From positions 1 to 41,730 of the forward strand of contig JAQWJH010000081.1 in NCBI GenBank assembly GCA_029248455.1: a DNA stretch of 41,730 nucleotides. Reading direction: 5' to 3'. This DNA comes from Flavobacteriaceae bacterium. Its GTDB lineage: Bacteria; Bacteroidota; Bacteroidia; Flavobacteriales; Flavobacteriaceae. Position numbers and translations under genes: made by a program. Below the pieces are notes generated by a model that did not search any database, was not told where the DNA came from, and saw nothing but the letters and a program-made list of their open reading frames with translations. Within the stretch, counting starts at the first letter, position 1. Each line of letters opens with the position of its first letter. Positions 5,254 through 34,018 of this stretch are shown here, piece by piece.

Positions 5254-6958
5254 AGAAAACTTAATTGAAAAAAACTACTCTATTTGGACCTCACCTGCTT
5301 TCGATAAAAGCATAATTTCAAAAATTAATAAACTCAAACAACATGATATTAGAGAATTCAACGATTCTTTTTATTGCAACTTAAGTTTTGGAACAGGTGG
5401 AATGAGAGGTATTGTTGGTTTAGGACCCAACAGAGTTAACAAATATACCTTTGGAAAAAATACTCAAGGAATCTCAGATTATATTAATAAAATTTTCAAA
5501 AAAGACTTTAAGTCAGTGGTAATTGCTTACGATTGCAGGAATGATAGTGAATTTTTAGCTCAAAAAGTAGCTGAAATTTTTAGCGCAAACAACATTAAGG
5601 TTTTTTTATTTAGCTCCCTAAGACCAACCCCTGAGCTATCCTATGCATTGATCAAATTAAATTGTTTGTGTGGAATAGTTTTAACAGCCTCTCACAATCC
5701 ACCTGACTATAATGGATATAAAGTGTATTGGAAAGATGGAGGTCAAATTGTTCCGCCAATTGATCAGAAACTAATCAACGAAATAAACAATACTAACTAT
5801 TCCTCCATAAATTTTAAAAAAAATGAAGAATTAATTGAATTGATTGATAAAAGTATTGATGAAAATTTTGTAAAAGATTCAATAAAAAATGGAAAAATAG
5901 GAACATCTAACAGAGCAAATTTTAAAATTGCTTTTACGCCTCTACACGGGACTTCATATAAAATTGGACCAGAAGTACTTAAACAAGCCGGATATAAAAA
6001 TTTGAAAATTGTAGAAGAACAGGCTTCTCCCAATGGAAACTTCCCAACTGTTAAATCACCAAATCCAGAGGATACAGAATCGCTTGAAATGGTATTAAAT
6101 TTAGCTAAAGCTAATGATTCAGATATTTTCATTGGAACTGACCCTGATTCGGACAGATTAGGTATTGGTGTAAAAAATGACAATGGAGGCTATACAACTC
6201 TCAACGGAAACCAGATAATGATTGTTTTAACAGAGTATTTGCTTTCTAAGTTTAAAGGGGAGTTAAATCAATCCTATTTTATTGGATCGACAATAGTTTC
6301 CACTCCAATGATAGTAAATTTAGCGAGCGCTCACAATGTAGATTTAAAAATTGGATTGACTGGATTTAAGTGGATTGCTAAAATGATTCATGACTTCCCT
6401 AATCAAAAATTCATTGGAGGTGGTGAAGAAAGTTACGGATATTTAGTAGGTGATTTTGTAAGAGACAAAGATGCTATTACCAGCTTGTTACTAGCATGTG
6501 AACTTGGATCAGAATGTAAAAGTAATGGAGAAAGTTTGTATAATTATCTTATAAACTGTTACATTAAATACGGATTATTCAAAGAGAGATTAATTTCAAT
6601 TGAGAAAAAAGGAATACTAGGTCTGAATGAAATAAAAAATATTATGAAAGGCTACAGAGAGAAACCAATAAGTAAATTGGCTGGGAATGAGTTACTTTAC
6701 ATTGAGGATTATAAGAAATCTGAGAAATATAATCTCCAAACTGGATTGAAATCAATTTTAAAATTTCCTAAATCTAATGTTTTGATTTTTGAATCTAATG
6801 ATGGCACAAGAGTTGCAATAAGACCAAGTGGGACTGAACCAAAAATAAAATTTTACTTTAGTGTAAATATGAAAATAGATTCAAAAAAAATGTTTGAAGC
6901 TTCAAATAAAATTTTGGAAAATAAGATAGATCAACTTGTTAAAGAATTTCAATTTTAA
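5246..6958 (+). CDS. Phospho-sugar mutase (phosphoglucomutase/phosphomannomutase family)
   Basis: TASHNPPDYNGYKVYW, GTDPDSDRLG, GGGEESYG, RPSGTEPKIKFY. Confidence 0.93.
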   Translation: MNEENLIEKNYSIWTSPAFDKSIISKINKLKQHDIREFNDSFYCNLSFGTGGMRGIVGLGPNRVNKYTFGKNTQGISDYINKIFKKDFKSVVIAYDCRNDSEFLAQKVAEIFSANNIKVFLFSSLRPTPELSYALIKLNCLCGIVLTASHNPPDYNGYKVYWKDGGQIVPPIDQKLINEINNTNYSSINFKKNEELIELIDKSIDENFVKDSIKNGKIGTSNRANFKIAFTPLHGTSYKIGPEVLKQAGYKNLKIVEEQASPNGNFPTVKSPNPEDTESLEMVLNLAKANDSDIFIGTDPDSDRLGIGVKNDNGGYTTLNGNQIMIVLTEYLLSKFKGELNQSYFIGSTIVSTPMIVNLASAHNVDLKIGLTGFKWIAKMIHDFPNQKFIGGGEESYGYLVGDFVRDKDAITSLLLACELGSECKSNGESLYNYLINCYIKYGLFKERLISIEKKGILGLNEIKNIMKGYREKPISKLAGNELLYIEDYKKSEKYNLQTGLKSILKFPKSNVLIFESNDGTRVAIRPSGTEPKIKFYFSVNMKIDSKKMFEASNKILENKIDQLVKEFQF

Positions 6959-6961
6959 TAA

Positions 6962-8785
6962 ATGACCTACTTTAGAAAAGTTTTTAGATTTGCCATTCCC
7001 TACAAAAAATTTATATTTTTAAATATTTTTTTTAATATTCTTTATGCTTTTTTTAGTGCCTTATCATTTCTATCACTCATGCCTATGTTGGAAGTATTAT
7101 TTGGTGATGACAAACAAAAATTTTCAAAACCCGAGTTTGATAGCTTATCTAATTTTGGGAATAACTTAGAGGAATGGCTTAACTATCAGGTTTATTTATT
7201 TTCTGGAGATGATCCCAAAAAAGCTCTAATTTTTGTAATCTCAACAATAGTAATTCTTTTCTTTTTTAAAAATTTTTTTAACTACATAGCTATGTATTTT
7301 ATAACTTTTTTAAGAAATGGTATCCTTAAAGATCTTAGAGAAAATGTTTATAAAAAAATAATAAGCTTACCTATCCCCTTTTTTTCTGAGAAAAAAAAAG
7401 GAGACGTAATATCTAGAATTACAGCTGATGTTTTAGAAATACAACATTCATTTTTATCTGTACTAGAGTTGATAGTTAGAGAACCCCTAACTGTTTTTTT
7501 TACTTTAATAGCTATGTTTCTAATAAGCTTTAAGTTAACTCTATTTGTTCTGTTTTTTATACCAATATCTGGATTTATTATTTCTATAATTGGCAAGACA
7601 TTGAAAAACACCTCAAACATAGTTCAACAAGAGCAATCAGAAATATTATCAATAACAGAGGAAACATTACACGGCCTTAAAATTATCAAGAGTTTTGTTT
7701 CTGAATTTTTTTTCTTGAGCAGATTTAAAAAAACTAATGATAAATTTTATAATTTTTCAAACAAACTAATTAATCGCCAAAACTTGGCAAGCCCATTAAG
7801 TGAGTTTTTAGGAATTTCAGTTATTGGAGTTTTACTTTGGTATGGAGGTCAATTAGTATTAGTTGATTCGGAATTGAAACCAGCTGCTTTTTTAACATAC
7901 ATGGGTTTAGCTTATGGCGTTTTAACACCAGCTAAAGCAATAAGTAAAGCTTCTTACTCAATAAAAAAAGGAAATGCAGCAGCGCAAAGAGTTATCGAAA
8001 TATTGGAATCAAAGACATCAATTAAAGAACTAAAAAACCCTGTTAAAATAACTCATTTTGAAAATGAATTGAGTTTTCATAATATTTCTTTCAAGTATGA
8101 GAAAGAAATGATTTTAAAGAACTTATCCTTTAAAATCAAAAAAGGAGAAACTATAGCAATCGTAGGACAATCAGGGAGTGGAAAATCTACAATTGCTAAT
8201 TTAATTCCAAGATTTTATGACACTTCATCTGGTGAAATAAAAATTGATGGAATTAATATTAAAGATTTGGCTAAAAAGGATTTAAGAAATTTAATTGGTC
8301 TTGTCACTCAAGACTCTATTTTATTTAACGATACTATTTCAAAAAATATCACATTATCAAATTTAAATGCAAATCATAATCAGATAAAAAATGCGTCAAA
8401 AGTTGCTAATGCTGACGAGTTTATTAATAAAACTATCGGTAAATTTGATTCTAATGTTGGCGACGGTGGTGAAAAATTATCTGGCGGACAAAAGCAAAGA
8501 ATTTCAATTGCTAGAGCCGTTCTAAAAAATCCTCCAATTATGATTTTAGATGAAGCTACTTCTTCTCTGGACTCAGAGTCAGAAAAATTAGTTCAAGATG
8601 CCTTAGAAAATTTGATGAAAAACAGGACCTCAGTTATAATAGCACACAGGTTATCGACTATACAAAAAGCTGATTTAATCCTAGTAATGAACAATGGACA
8701 AATAATTGAAAAAGGTAAACACAATGAATTAATCGAGCTTAATGGGATTTATTCAAAATTGATAAAACTTCAGTCTTTCAATTAA
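6962..8785 (+). CDS. ABC transporter, fused permease/ATPase (MsbA-like exporter)
   Basis: N-terminal TM domain; Walker A GQSGSGKST, signature LSGGQKQRIS, Walker B MILDEATSS, H-loop AHRLST. Confidence 0.92.
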   Translation: MTYFRKVFRFAIPYKKFIFLNIFFNILYAFFSALSFLSLMPMLEVLFGDDKQKFSKPEFDSLSNFGNNLEEWLNYQVYLFSGDDPKKALIFVISTIVILFFFKNFFNYIAMYFITFLRNGILKDLRENVYKKIISLPIPFFSEKKKGDVISRITADVLEIQHSFLSVLELIVREPLTVFFTLIAMFLISFKLTLFVLFFIPISGFIISIIGKTLKNTSNIVQQEQSEILSITEETLHGLKIIKSFVSEFFFLSRFKKTNDKFYNFSNKLINRQNLASPLSEFLGISVIGVLLWYGGQLVLVDSELKPAAFLTYMGLAYGVLTPAKAISKASYSIKKGNAAAQRVIEILESKTSIKELKNPVKITHFENELSFHNISFKYEKEMILKNLSFKIKKGETIAIVGQSGSGKSTIANLIPRFYDTSSGEIKIDGINIKDLAKKDLRNLIGLVTQDSILFNDTISKNITLSNLNANHNQIKNASKVANADEFINKTIGKFDSNVGDGGEKLSGGQKQRISIARAVLKNPPIMILDEATSSLDSESEKLVQDALENLMKNRTSVIIAHRLSTIQKADLILVMNNGQIIEKGKHNELIELNGIYSKLIKLQSFN

Positions 8786-11697: not shown

Positions 11698-14600
11698 ATG
11701 GTTCTTTTTTTCAAAGATAAAAACGAATTAATTTACGCAGTAGATTCTCCAAAAGATTTAGATTCAAAAAACATATCAAAGCTGGAATGGCTTTTTGTAG
11801 GTAAGTACATAGACAGCAATCAAATTTCTTCAAAAGAATTTTTAGGTCCAAAAAAAACAATGATTACTCCATGGAGTACAAATGCAGTTGAAATAGCTCA
11901 AAACATGGCCATTAATGGCCTTTTACGTATCGAAGTTTTTAAACCATTTTGTGAATCTTTAAAAAGCTTTGACCCTATGTTATTCGAATTGTATGATGGA
12001 TTAAATCAAGATATTTTTAAAAACAATATTTTGCCTAACCCTTTATTAGAAATTGATGACATTAATGATTACAATGAAAAAGAAGGGTTAGCACTAAGCA
12101 TTGAAGAAATAAATTATTTAGAGAGCCTATCAATAAAAATAAATAGAAAACTAACCGATTCAGAAGTTTTTGGTTTTTCTCAGGTTAATTCTGAGCACTG
12201 CAGGCATAAAATTTTTAATGGGAAATTTATTATTGACGGTAAAGAAAAAGAAGATTCATTATTCAAACTAATTAAAAAAACATCGTTAATAAATCCAAAT
12301 GAAATTGTCTCGGCTTATAAAGATAATGTAGCATTTGTTAAAGGTCCAAATATTGAGCAATTTGCTCCATCAAGAGCAGATGTTCCCTCATTCTACGAAA
12401 AAACAACTTTTGAATCTGTCATATCGTTGAAAGCTGAAACACATAATTTCCCTACGACTGTTGAACCCTTTAATGGAGCAGCAACTGGATCTGGTGGTGA
12501 AATTAGAGACCGATTAGCTGGAGGAAAAGGATCTCTTCCTTTAGCTGGAACAGCAGTTTATATGACAGCATACCCTAGAACTGATTCAAAAAAATCATGG
12601 GTTGGAAAAAAAAGAGAATGGCTTTACCAAACACCACTTGATATTCTTATAAAAGCCTCAAATGGCGCATCAGATTTTGGTAATAAATTCGGACAACCTT
12701 TAATCTGTGGTTCAATTTTTACGTTTGAGCATAATGATGATAATGTATTATTGGGGTATGATAAAGTAATAATGTTGGCAGGTGGAATTGGATTTGGAAA
12801 AAAGAATCAAAGTCTAAAAGATATTCCCAAAAGCAATGATATTATAGTGGTTTTGGGAGGAGATAATTACAGAATCGGTATGGGAGGAGCAGCTGTTTCC
12901 TCAACAGAAACAGGAAAGTATAGTTCTGGAATAGAATTAAATGCAGTACAAAGGTCTAACCCTGAAATGCAAAAAAGAGTAGCTAATGCCATTCGTGGTT
13001 TTGTAGAAGCTGATACAAACCCTATCATTTCAATTCATGACCATGGAGCTGGTGGTCACTTAAATTGTCTTTCTGAGCTGGTTGAAGAAACAGGTGGAAC
13101 AATTAATTTAGACAATCTTCCAATTGGTGATAAAACTCTATCTTTTAAAGAAATCATAGGTAATGAATCCCAGGAAAGAATGGGACTTATAATTTCTGAA
13201 AAGGACTACGAAACACTAAAAAATATTGCCGACAGAGAAAAAGCTCCTTGTTACAAAGTAGGAATGGTAAGAAGTGATAAAAAATTTATAATTCAATCCG
13301 AACTATCAACTAAAAACCCTATAGATCTATCTCTATCTGATTTTTTTGGAAATTCTCCTCAAACAATAATGAAAGATTCTACTTTAAAAATTGGATTTTC
13401 AAAACTTGACTATAGTTCATCAGAAATTATAAATTACTTAAATAATGTTTTAACGTTGGAGTCAGTTGCTTGTAAAGATTGGCTAACAAATAAAGTAGAT
13501 CGTTGCGTAACAGGTAAAGTAGCAAAACAACAATGTACAGGTTCTCTTCAACTTCCATTAAACAATTGTGGTGTTATGGCGTTAGATTACTCTGGTATCA
13601 AAGGAGTTGCTACATCAATCGGTCATTCTCCTCTAGTTTCCCTAATAGACCCTAGTGCAGGTTCTAGAAATGCTATAGGAAAAGCTTTAACTAATATTAT
13701 TTGGGCGCCATTAGAAAAAGGACTAAAATCTGTTACTCTCTCAGCTAATTGGATGTGGCCTTGTAAAAACCCTGGAGAAGATTCGAGACTTTATAAAGCT
13801 GTTGAAGCTTGCTCATCTTTTGCAATAGATTTAGGAATAAATATTCCAACTGGAAAAGATTCACTTTCAATGAAACAGAAATACAAAGACAAAGAAGTTG
13901 TCTCACCAGGTACGGTTATTATTTCAGCAGCTGCAAATTGTGATAATATTAATAAAATAATTGAGCCGGGATTTATAAATAATAATGATCCTATATATTA
14001 TATTGATCTTTCAAATAATAGTAAGGAACTTGGTGGTTCTGCGCTAGCACAAACATTAAGTAAAGTTGGATCTAAAACCATTGATGTAATAGACCCTAAC
14101 TATTTTAAAAAAACATTTGATGTTTTACAAAATTTAATTAGTAATGATTATGTAACATCAGGCCATGATATCAGCTCGGGTGGATTAATTACTAGTTTGC
14201 TCGAAATGTGTTTTCCTAACAATATGATTGGTGCAGAAATTGATTTATCTTTCTTTAAAGAATATGATACAGTAACAACATTTTTTAGTGAAAATATAGG
14301 AATCATTTTTCAAGCAAAACCAGTTGTTGAACAAGAATTTTATAAAAATAAAATTAATTTTAAAAAAATTGGTAATGTAAACAATAGTGGTGTTTTAACT
14401 ATTTTACATAATAACAATCAAAATAAGTTTAATATTAATCATTATAGAGATATATGGTTTAAAAATTCTTATTTGATGGATATTAATCAAAGTGGAAAAA
14501 TTAAAGCAAAAGAGAGGTTTGAAAATTATAAAGTTCAGCCTTTGAAATATCATTTTCCAAAAAACTTTAAAGGATTAATTAGAAAAGTAAATAAAAGCTC

Positions 14601-32320: not shown

Positions 32321-33214
32321 TTAATTTCTTTTTATTTTAAATATTATAACTGCATGAGGGAAAGTAATAGCAGCTAAGAATGAAAAGAAAATACTTATTA
32401 AAAGATTTTGAAAATCTTTCATGAAAAAATAAATGATAAATAATCCAATCAAAGAAATTAACCAATACACAAAAGCATTTTTTAAATATGAAATAATTGA
32501 TTTAAAATCTGATTTTCCATAAATATATCTTGATTGTTCTAAAATTGAAGGTATACTGTGCCAAAAAACAAAATAAATACCAAATGCATAAATTAATTTT
32601 GTTGAGTAAAAAATGAAAGAAAGTAAAGTAATTAGTATCAATTGAATAAATAATTGATTTAAGATATATTTAAAATTAAAAAAACCACTAAAAAACATTA
32701 ATACAAAAGAAATAATTAATAAATAATCATAAAAAAATAATTGAATTTGAAATTTTGTAATTTCTTATATGACTATATTAACTTGGGAGCTATGAATCCA
32801 AAAAAGCACTGAACACAAAAAAAGACCATAGCTAAAGTAAAAAAAACTCAATTTCTTTAATCCTTTGTTATCAAACATTGTCCATTGGTGCTCCCCAAAA
32901 TGATACGAACTAAATAAAACAAAAAAAATTAGTGCGTAAAATGGAATAAAATAAAAAAAGATTCCAAAAGAAATAACCATAGCCAAATACTTAATTAATA
33001 AGTTAAGTGATGAGTCGTCATTATTTCTTGTGTTTTTTTTTAATAATAATATATCATTAGCTCCATGAATTATACCAAAAGATAAAATTCCACTGAAAAT
33101 CAATAAGTTCTGAGCAAATTCACTCAAAAAAAAACTGAGAATTAGACAAAAAATTGAGGGAATAAGTATTAATTTGAATGAAAAGTTGTTAAAAATTTGA
33201 GATTTTAACAGCAT
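32321..33214 (-). pseudogene. blh: Brp/Blh-family beta-carotene 15,15'-dioxygenase (retinal synthesis) with one in-frame TAA stop
   Basis: ORFs 33214..32765 and 32698..32321 are in the same frame (offset 516 nt = 172 codons) and separated by one TAA (32765-32767) plus 22 open codons (EITKFQIQLFFYDYLLIISFVL). Blh-like motifs fall on both sides: HGANDILLL and YHFGEHQW before the stop, FWHSIPSILEQ and FPHAVI after it. Confidence 0.85.
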
Positions 33215-33301: not shown

Positions 33302-34018
33302 ATGGAAAATTTTTTAAACTTAATGTATTTTTTTGGTGATACTCCTGCTGGTGACGATTTAGTAGGTATTACCTTTTGGATAGGTACAATGGCTATGATG
33401 GCAGCATCTGCTTTTTTCTTCTTATCCATGAATTCAGTTGACGCTAAATGGAGAACTTCTATTTTAGTCTCTGGATTAATTACTTTCATTGCTGCAGTTC
33501 ATTACATGTACATGAGAGATGCTCATGCTGCTGGTGACAATACTGTAGTTTTCAGATATGTTGACTGGATACTTACTGTACCATTAATGTGTGTTGAATT
33601 CTATCTAATTTTAAAAGGTGCTGGTGCAACAACTAAACATTTAAAGCATTTAGTAGTAGCTTCTACAATTATGCTTGTTACTGGATATGTTGGTGAAGCT
33701 GGCTTAGGAGACGCTGCTATTTGGGGGTTAGTCTCTGGTCTAGCATATTTCTACATTGTCTACATGATCAAATTTGGTGAGTTAGCTAAACTTGCAGCTT
33801 CTGCGGGTGGCGCAGTTCAATCTGCTCACAACACTTTGTGTTTATTCGTAATTATTGGTTGGGCTATTTACCCTATTGGTTACATGGCAGGAACTGACGG
33901 ATGGTATGATTTTATTGATGCTTTTGTACCTAACATGGAAGTTATTTACAATATCGGTGACTCAATTAACAAAATTGGTTTCGGTCTTGTAGTTTATAAT
34001 CTTGCTGTTTCAAAATAG
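33302..34018 (+). CDS. Proteorhodopsin, light-driven proton pump, green-type
   Basis: 238 aa from ATG 33302. RYVDWILTVPLMCVEFYLIL gives D97/T101/E108 and M105 in GPR numbering; AAVHYMYMR (H75); Schiff-base Lys in DSINKIGFG (codon 33971). The provided start 33254 lies upstream of the promoter motif. Confidence 0.97.
   Translation: MENFLNLMYFFGDTPAGDDLVGITFWIGTMAMMAASAFFFLSMNSVDAKWRTSILVSGLITFIAAVHYMYMRDAHAAGDNTVVFRYVDWILTVPLMCVEFYLILKGAGATTKHLKHLVVASTIMLVTGYVGEAGLGDAAIWGLVSGLAYFYIVYMIKFGELAKLAASAGGAVQSAHNTLCLFVIIGWAIYPIGYMAGTDGWYDFIDAFVPNMEVIYNIGDSINKIGFGLVVYNLAVSK

Follow-up and report, generated by a model that had tools for sequence, protein, structure and literature searches.

Does the in-frame TAA that interrupts blh, next to an intact proteorhodopsin, record the loss of retinal synthesis in a marine flavobacterium, an unusual way of expressing the enzyme, or a fault in the assembled sequence? 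The gene lies in a stretch of 41,730 nucleotides (the window), a single contig from the draft assembly of an uncultured marine flavobacterium; the draft comprises 1.55 Mb in 124 contigs and is 73% complete. Our analysis points to a sequence error or a very recent mutation as the most likely origin of the stop, rather than to a new mechanism; we put the probability that it is a consensus error or a rare fresh allele, in a species that keeps a functional blh, at roughly 0.6. The features on which the argument turns are collected in the table.

Table 1. Features of the blh locus and of the other interrupted genes in the draft genome. Positions are those of the window unless a contig is named.
Feature	Location	Strand	Remarks
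blh (Brp/Blh beta-carotene 15,15'-dioxygenase)	32321..33214	-	297 codons plus stop, interrupted by one in-frame TAA
In-frame TAA, codon 150	32765..32767	-	GAA in sister; column E/K/F/Y/L/N in relatives
Codon 151, GAA (Glu)	32762..32764	-	Asp in 15 of 15 other congeneric copies
In-frame ATG, codon 173	32696..32698	-	present in intact sister; within predicted helix; implausible as new start
Invariant His50 (HGAND motif), 5' half	33065..33067	-	conserved among relatives
Invariant His105 (YHFGE motif), 5' half	32900..32902	-	conserved among relatives
Invariant His219 (WHSIPS motif), 3' half	32558..32560	-	conserved among relatives
Invariant His287 (FPH motif), 3' half	32354..32356	-	conserved among relatives
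Proteorhodopsin	33302..34018	+	divergent from blh; intact; RYVDWILTVPLMCVEF and Schiff-base Lys in NIGDSINKIGFG
crtI (phytoene desaturase family)	C13, about 20236 (L060, C13:10001-30000)	-	split by one extra T
GDPD-family phosphodiesterase	C41 (L163), gene 10816-10079		TAA at codon 52/245, GAA in sister; remaining frame intact
Transketolase-type E1-beta (PDH-like complex)	C11 (L074), gene 1163-183		TAA at codon 307/326; GAA in sister
Y_Y_Y-domain protein	C75 (L061), about 11760-14132		TAA at codon 611/790; TAC in sister
PCMT	C33 (L155), 6850-7451		TAA at codon 151/200 and one-base deletion near end

On the minus strand, the open reading frame 33214..32765 (149 aa) and the next 147 codons down to 32321 share one frame with the TAA as their sole separator, as an earlier note on this DNA had described, and the downstream motifs that it quoted are present in the 3' half. 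Its assignment of the gene to blh is borne out along the full length by two profiles: the halves match PF15461 at profile positions 2-108 (E 1e-16) and 131-263 (E 1e-17), and TIGR03753 at positions 3-112 and 135-259, with scores of 75.4 and 85.2 bits that each fall below the cut-off of 95.25 when taken alone. Read as a whole, the stretch is a single PF15461 match of 121.7 bits (cut-off 28) with one TAA inside. The gap-free alignment to the intact sister gene over 297 codons argues that the split frame is not a product of chance. As assembled, the gene lacks an uninterrupted frame; the 15 other congeneric copies are uninterrupted.

Pairing of blh with an adjacent proteorhodopsin is the standard arrangement in marine Flavobacteriia (PMC5932025), and the present gene resembles its counterparts there in its full-length family match (PF15461, TIGR03753), its invariant histidines and its location, but differs from them in the codon-150 TAA, which occurs in this assembly only. 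The neighbouring rhodopsin matches PF01036 (E 9e-40) and carries the D/T/E helix-C motif RYVDWILTVPLMCVEF and the Schiff-base lysine in NIGDSINKIGFG, the features by which a proton-pumping proteorhodopsin is recognized; it is thus intact, as had been claimed. In another genome, a long-contig assembly (G015, FRAM18_bin219 contig 3; L027 / L045), blh is intact and the proteorhodopsin next to it is disrupted across three frames, probably through indel errors.

Comparison with 16 relatives shows four invariant histidines, which the stop divides two and two, with His50 and His105 upstream and His219 and His287 downstream. Judged from this distribution, a product of 149 aa is expected to be inactive, in line with the earlier note. 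In the 66A03 enzyme the metal ligands are His21, His78, His188 and His192, and mutating four histidines reduces activity to less than 5% (review PMC9227343); the four invariant histidines found here may correspond to these ligands. The WHSxPS motif around His219 was read in the congeners and in two other Flavobacteriaceae. The predicted fold of Blh has a mean pLDDT of 86 and places residue 150 in a short helix (142-153); a comparison with solved structures gave no sequence match and no meaningful fold match for Blh.

Among the 22 genomes of the genus, including this one, blh was found in 16, and this copy alone has a stop. The closest relative (G017, CALKEO010000029.1) shares 97% DNA identity over 24.6 kb and encodes an intact Blh of 297 aa with GAA at codon 150. 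Close relatives had been proposed as a guide to the ancestral codon: they offer GAA from the sister, but the column is variable, with E, K, F, Y, L or N in other copies, and an ancestral GAA is therefore the simplest option on comparative grounds and not a proven one. All the other congeneric copies have Asp at the adjoining position 151, which a third-base change has turned into Glu here (D151E), so that two adjacent codons are altered.

The downstream half of the gene constrains the age of the lesion. The ratio of nonsynonymous to synonymous change relative to the sister, a calculation that had been suggested for the 3' half, is 0.113 there and a similar 0.120 in the 5' half. Only three nonsynonymous differences separate the 3' halves on both branches together, against about 19 expected on the draft's own branch under neutrality, and these counts reject neutral decay after the divergence from the sister (Poisson p ~7e-6). 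With its 3' half under normal constraint, the stop is, on this pattern of substitution, either recent or not real, and the earlier argument that the preserved downstream frame speaks against old decay is upheld.

A survey of the draft against the sister, covering an alignment of about 307 kb with some 220 genes (100 aa or longer) compared each way, places the blh stop in a wider context. Inspection removed three classes from the count: short frames that match no family, stops that fall on the last codon, and frameshifts at the ends of genes. An in-frame TAA was found inside five draft genes, including blh (codon 150/297), compared with one sister gene (codon 311/346), an excess that is not significant. 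Most of these lesions in the draft are single substitutions, and the frame is otherwise well kept in four of the five genes; PCMT looks like a true pseudogene. A stop at codon 16 of a 4HBT thioesterase precedes the likely true start and was excluded from the count. Isolated in-frame stops occur generally in this draft, and with several of them in unrelated genes, little reason remains to ascribe the blh stop to rhodopsin biology.

The reading that we favour is that this is an ordinary marine-flavobacterial blh, which would normally supply retinal to the neighbouring proteorhodopsin, and that its TAA would be one of the isolated in-frame stops scattered across this genome, arising as a base-level consensus error or as a rare, very fresh allele caught by a thin consensus. 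The species would still produce full-length Blh; we infer that the lesion belongs to the consensus and not to the species. We lean towards an error or a rare allele because the stops are dispersed among unrelated genes, one of which encodes an enzyme of central metabolism, because codons 150 and 151 are both altered, because the crtI lesion described below lies in a homopolymer, because the assembly is fragmentary and because the relatives are intact. Homopolymers are prone to sequencing error. A high local error rate is nevertheless not visible in the blh contig, whose own branch (163 polarised changes, against 194 for the sister; nonsynonymous changes 52 and 50) is no longer than that of the sister, and in which the G>T damage signature is not enriched (4 against 4). 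At a nonsense fraction of 0.056, five stops in 219 kb would call for one error in about every 2.5 kb; such a rate is high for a consensus of good quality and counts against an error. So does the fact that about 2% of broken genes is not unusual in a real genome, and most of the affected genes could be dispensable, which points the same way.

A real and very recent nonsense mutation, with no Blh made and the opsin dark unless retinal comes from outside or from another enzyme, is the main alternative, though a tentative one. It is consistent with the clean stop and with a contig that shows no excess of changes on its own branch. The draft contains one blh and one rhodopsin, and the search that had been proposed for a further blh or brp found no second blh, and no RPE65-type oxygenase (PF03055) either, in this 73%-complete genome; no other blh alleles were found in viral contigs. 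Moreover, crtI, which belongs to the same pathway, has a frameshift in a T run that counts nine where eight would keep the frame (six congeners are uninterrupted), so that two pathway genes carry lesions. Against a real loss stand the lesions of the same type in unrelated genes, the homopolymer at which crtI is broken, an error-prone context, and the intact crtB and crtZ that adjoin it. At the observed rate, the chance of a second lesion among about five other pathway genes is estimated at roughly 1 in 10, which makes the crtI lesion a lead and not evidence of pathway loss. Nor does any congener show a loss of blh on a contig that spans the locus.

Rhodopsin-bearing bacteria without blh are documented, among them Rhodoluna lacicola, Aurantimicrobium minutum and rhodopsin-bearing Saccharibacteria (PMC7734400, PMC9296517). 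If the stop were real, this flavobacterium would resemble them in that its opsin is intact and no known retinal-forming enzyme is functional; it would differ in that they lack the gene, whereas here a constrained gene carries one fresh lesion and its relatives are intact. By this analogy the stop, even if real, would be a fresh example of an already known situation. Among the papers searched, none dealt with a broken blh beside a rhodopsin. If real, the stop would mark a recent loss of retinal synthesis that can be dated and in which the opsin has been retained, and would allow a direct test of the idea that retinal is a shared good. For the present the case is chiefly a warning: draft metagenome assemblies may hold several clean in-frame stops, and for that reason a broken blh in one draft is not to be read as retinal auxotrophy without the reads.

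We consider it unlikely that the lineage is starting to lose the whole retinal pathway, with the blh nonsense codon and the crtI frameshift as first steps, and is turning into a consumer of retinal made by others while its opsin is still under selection. A second crtI-like gene, on C75, had been flagged as containing one TAA; that TAA is the regular terminator, and both the draft and the sister carry an intact copy, which also weighs against a real loss. An apparent loss of crtY (lycopene cyclase) was likewise set aside: a full-length PF05834 match is absent from the draft, and the matching contig C101 (6785 bases) ends before crtY, so that the gap is one of missing data. The crtI of another congener (G011, C7:123597-125047; L194/L198) is also in two pieces with a stop.

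Readings in which the interrupted gene still yields active enzyme, by readthrough, suppression or assembly of halves, are together very unlikely, and those options of the earlier note found no support. Full-length Blh made by readthrough of the TAA or by a suppressor tRNA is highly improbable. Three of the five mid-gene stops stand at codons that are GAA in the sister, as a mutated tRNA-Glu would need, and the 3' half of blh is conserved; yet TAA terminates 134 of the 192 long frames sampled, no suppressor anticodon occurs among the tRNAs in about 0.7 Mb (about half) of the genome, and the tRNA-Glu found has a normal anticodon. Downstream of the stop no structured element was detected (z -0.39), and the congeners have no stop at codon 150. 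Least probable of all is a split enzyme assembled from two separately translated halves, for although an in-frame ATG at 32698 is available and the invariant histidines are distributed across both parts, no relative has a split blh, and the ATG encodes an ordinary methionine, present also in the intact sister, that lies at codon 173 within the predicted helix 160-179, so that the second product would begin in mid-helix and a restart there as a designed second protein is, on the predicted fold, unlikely.
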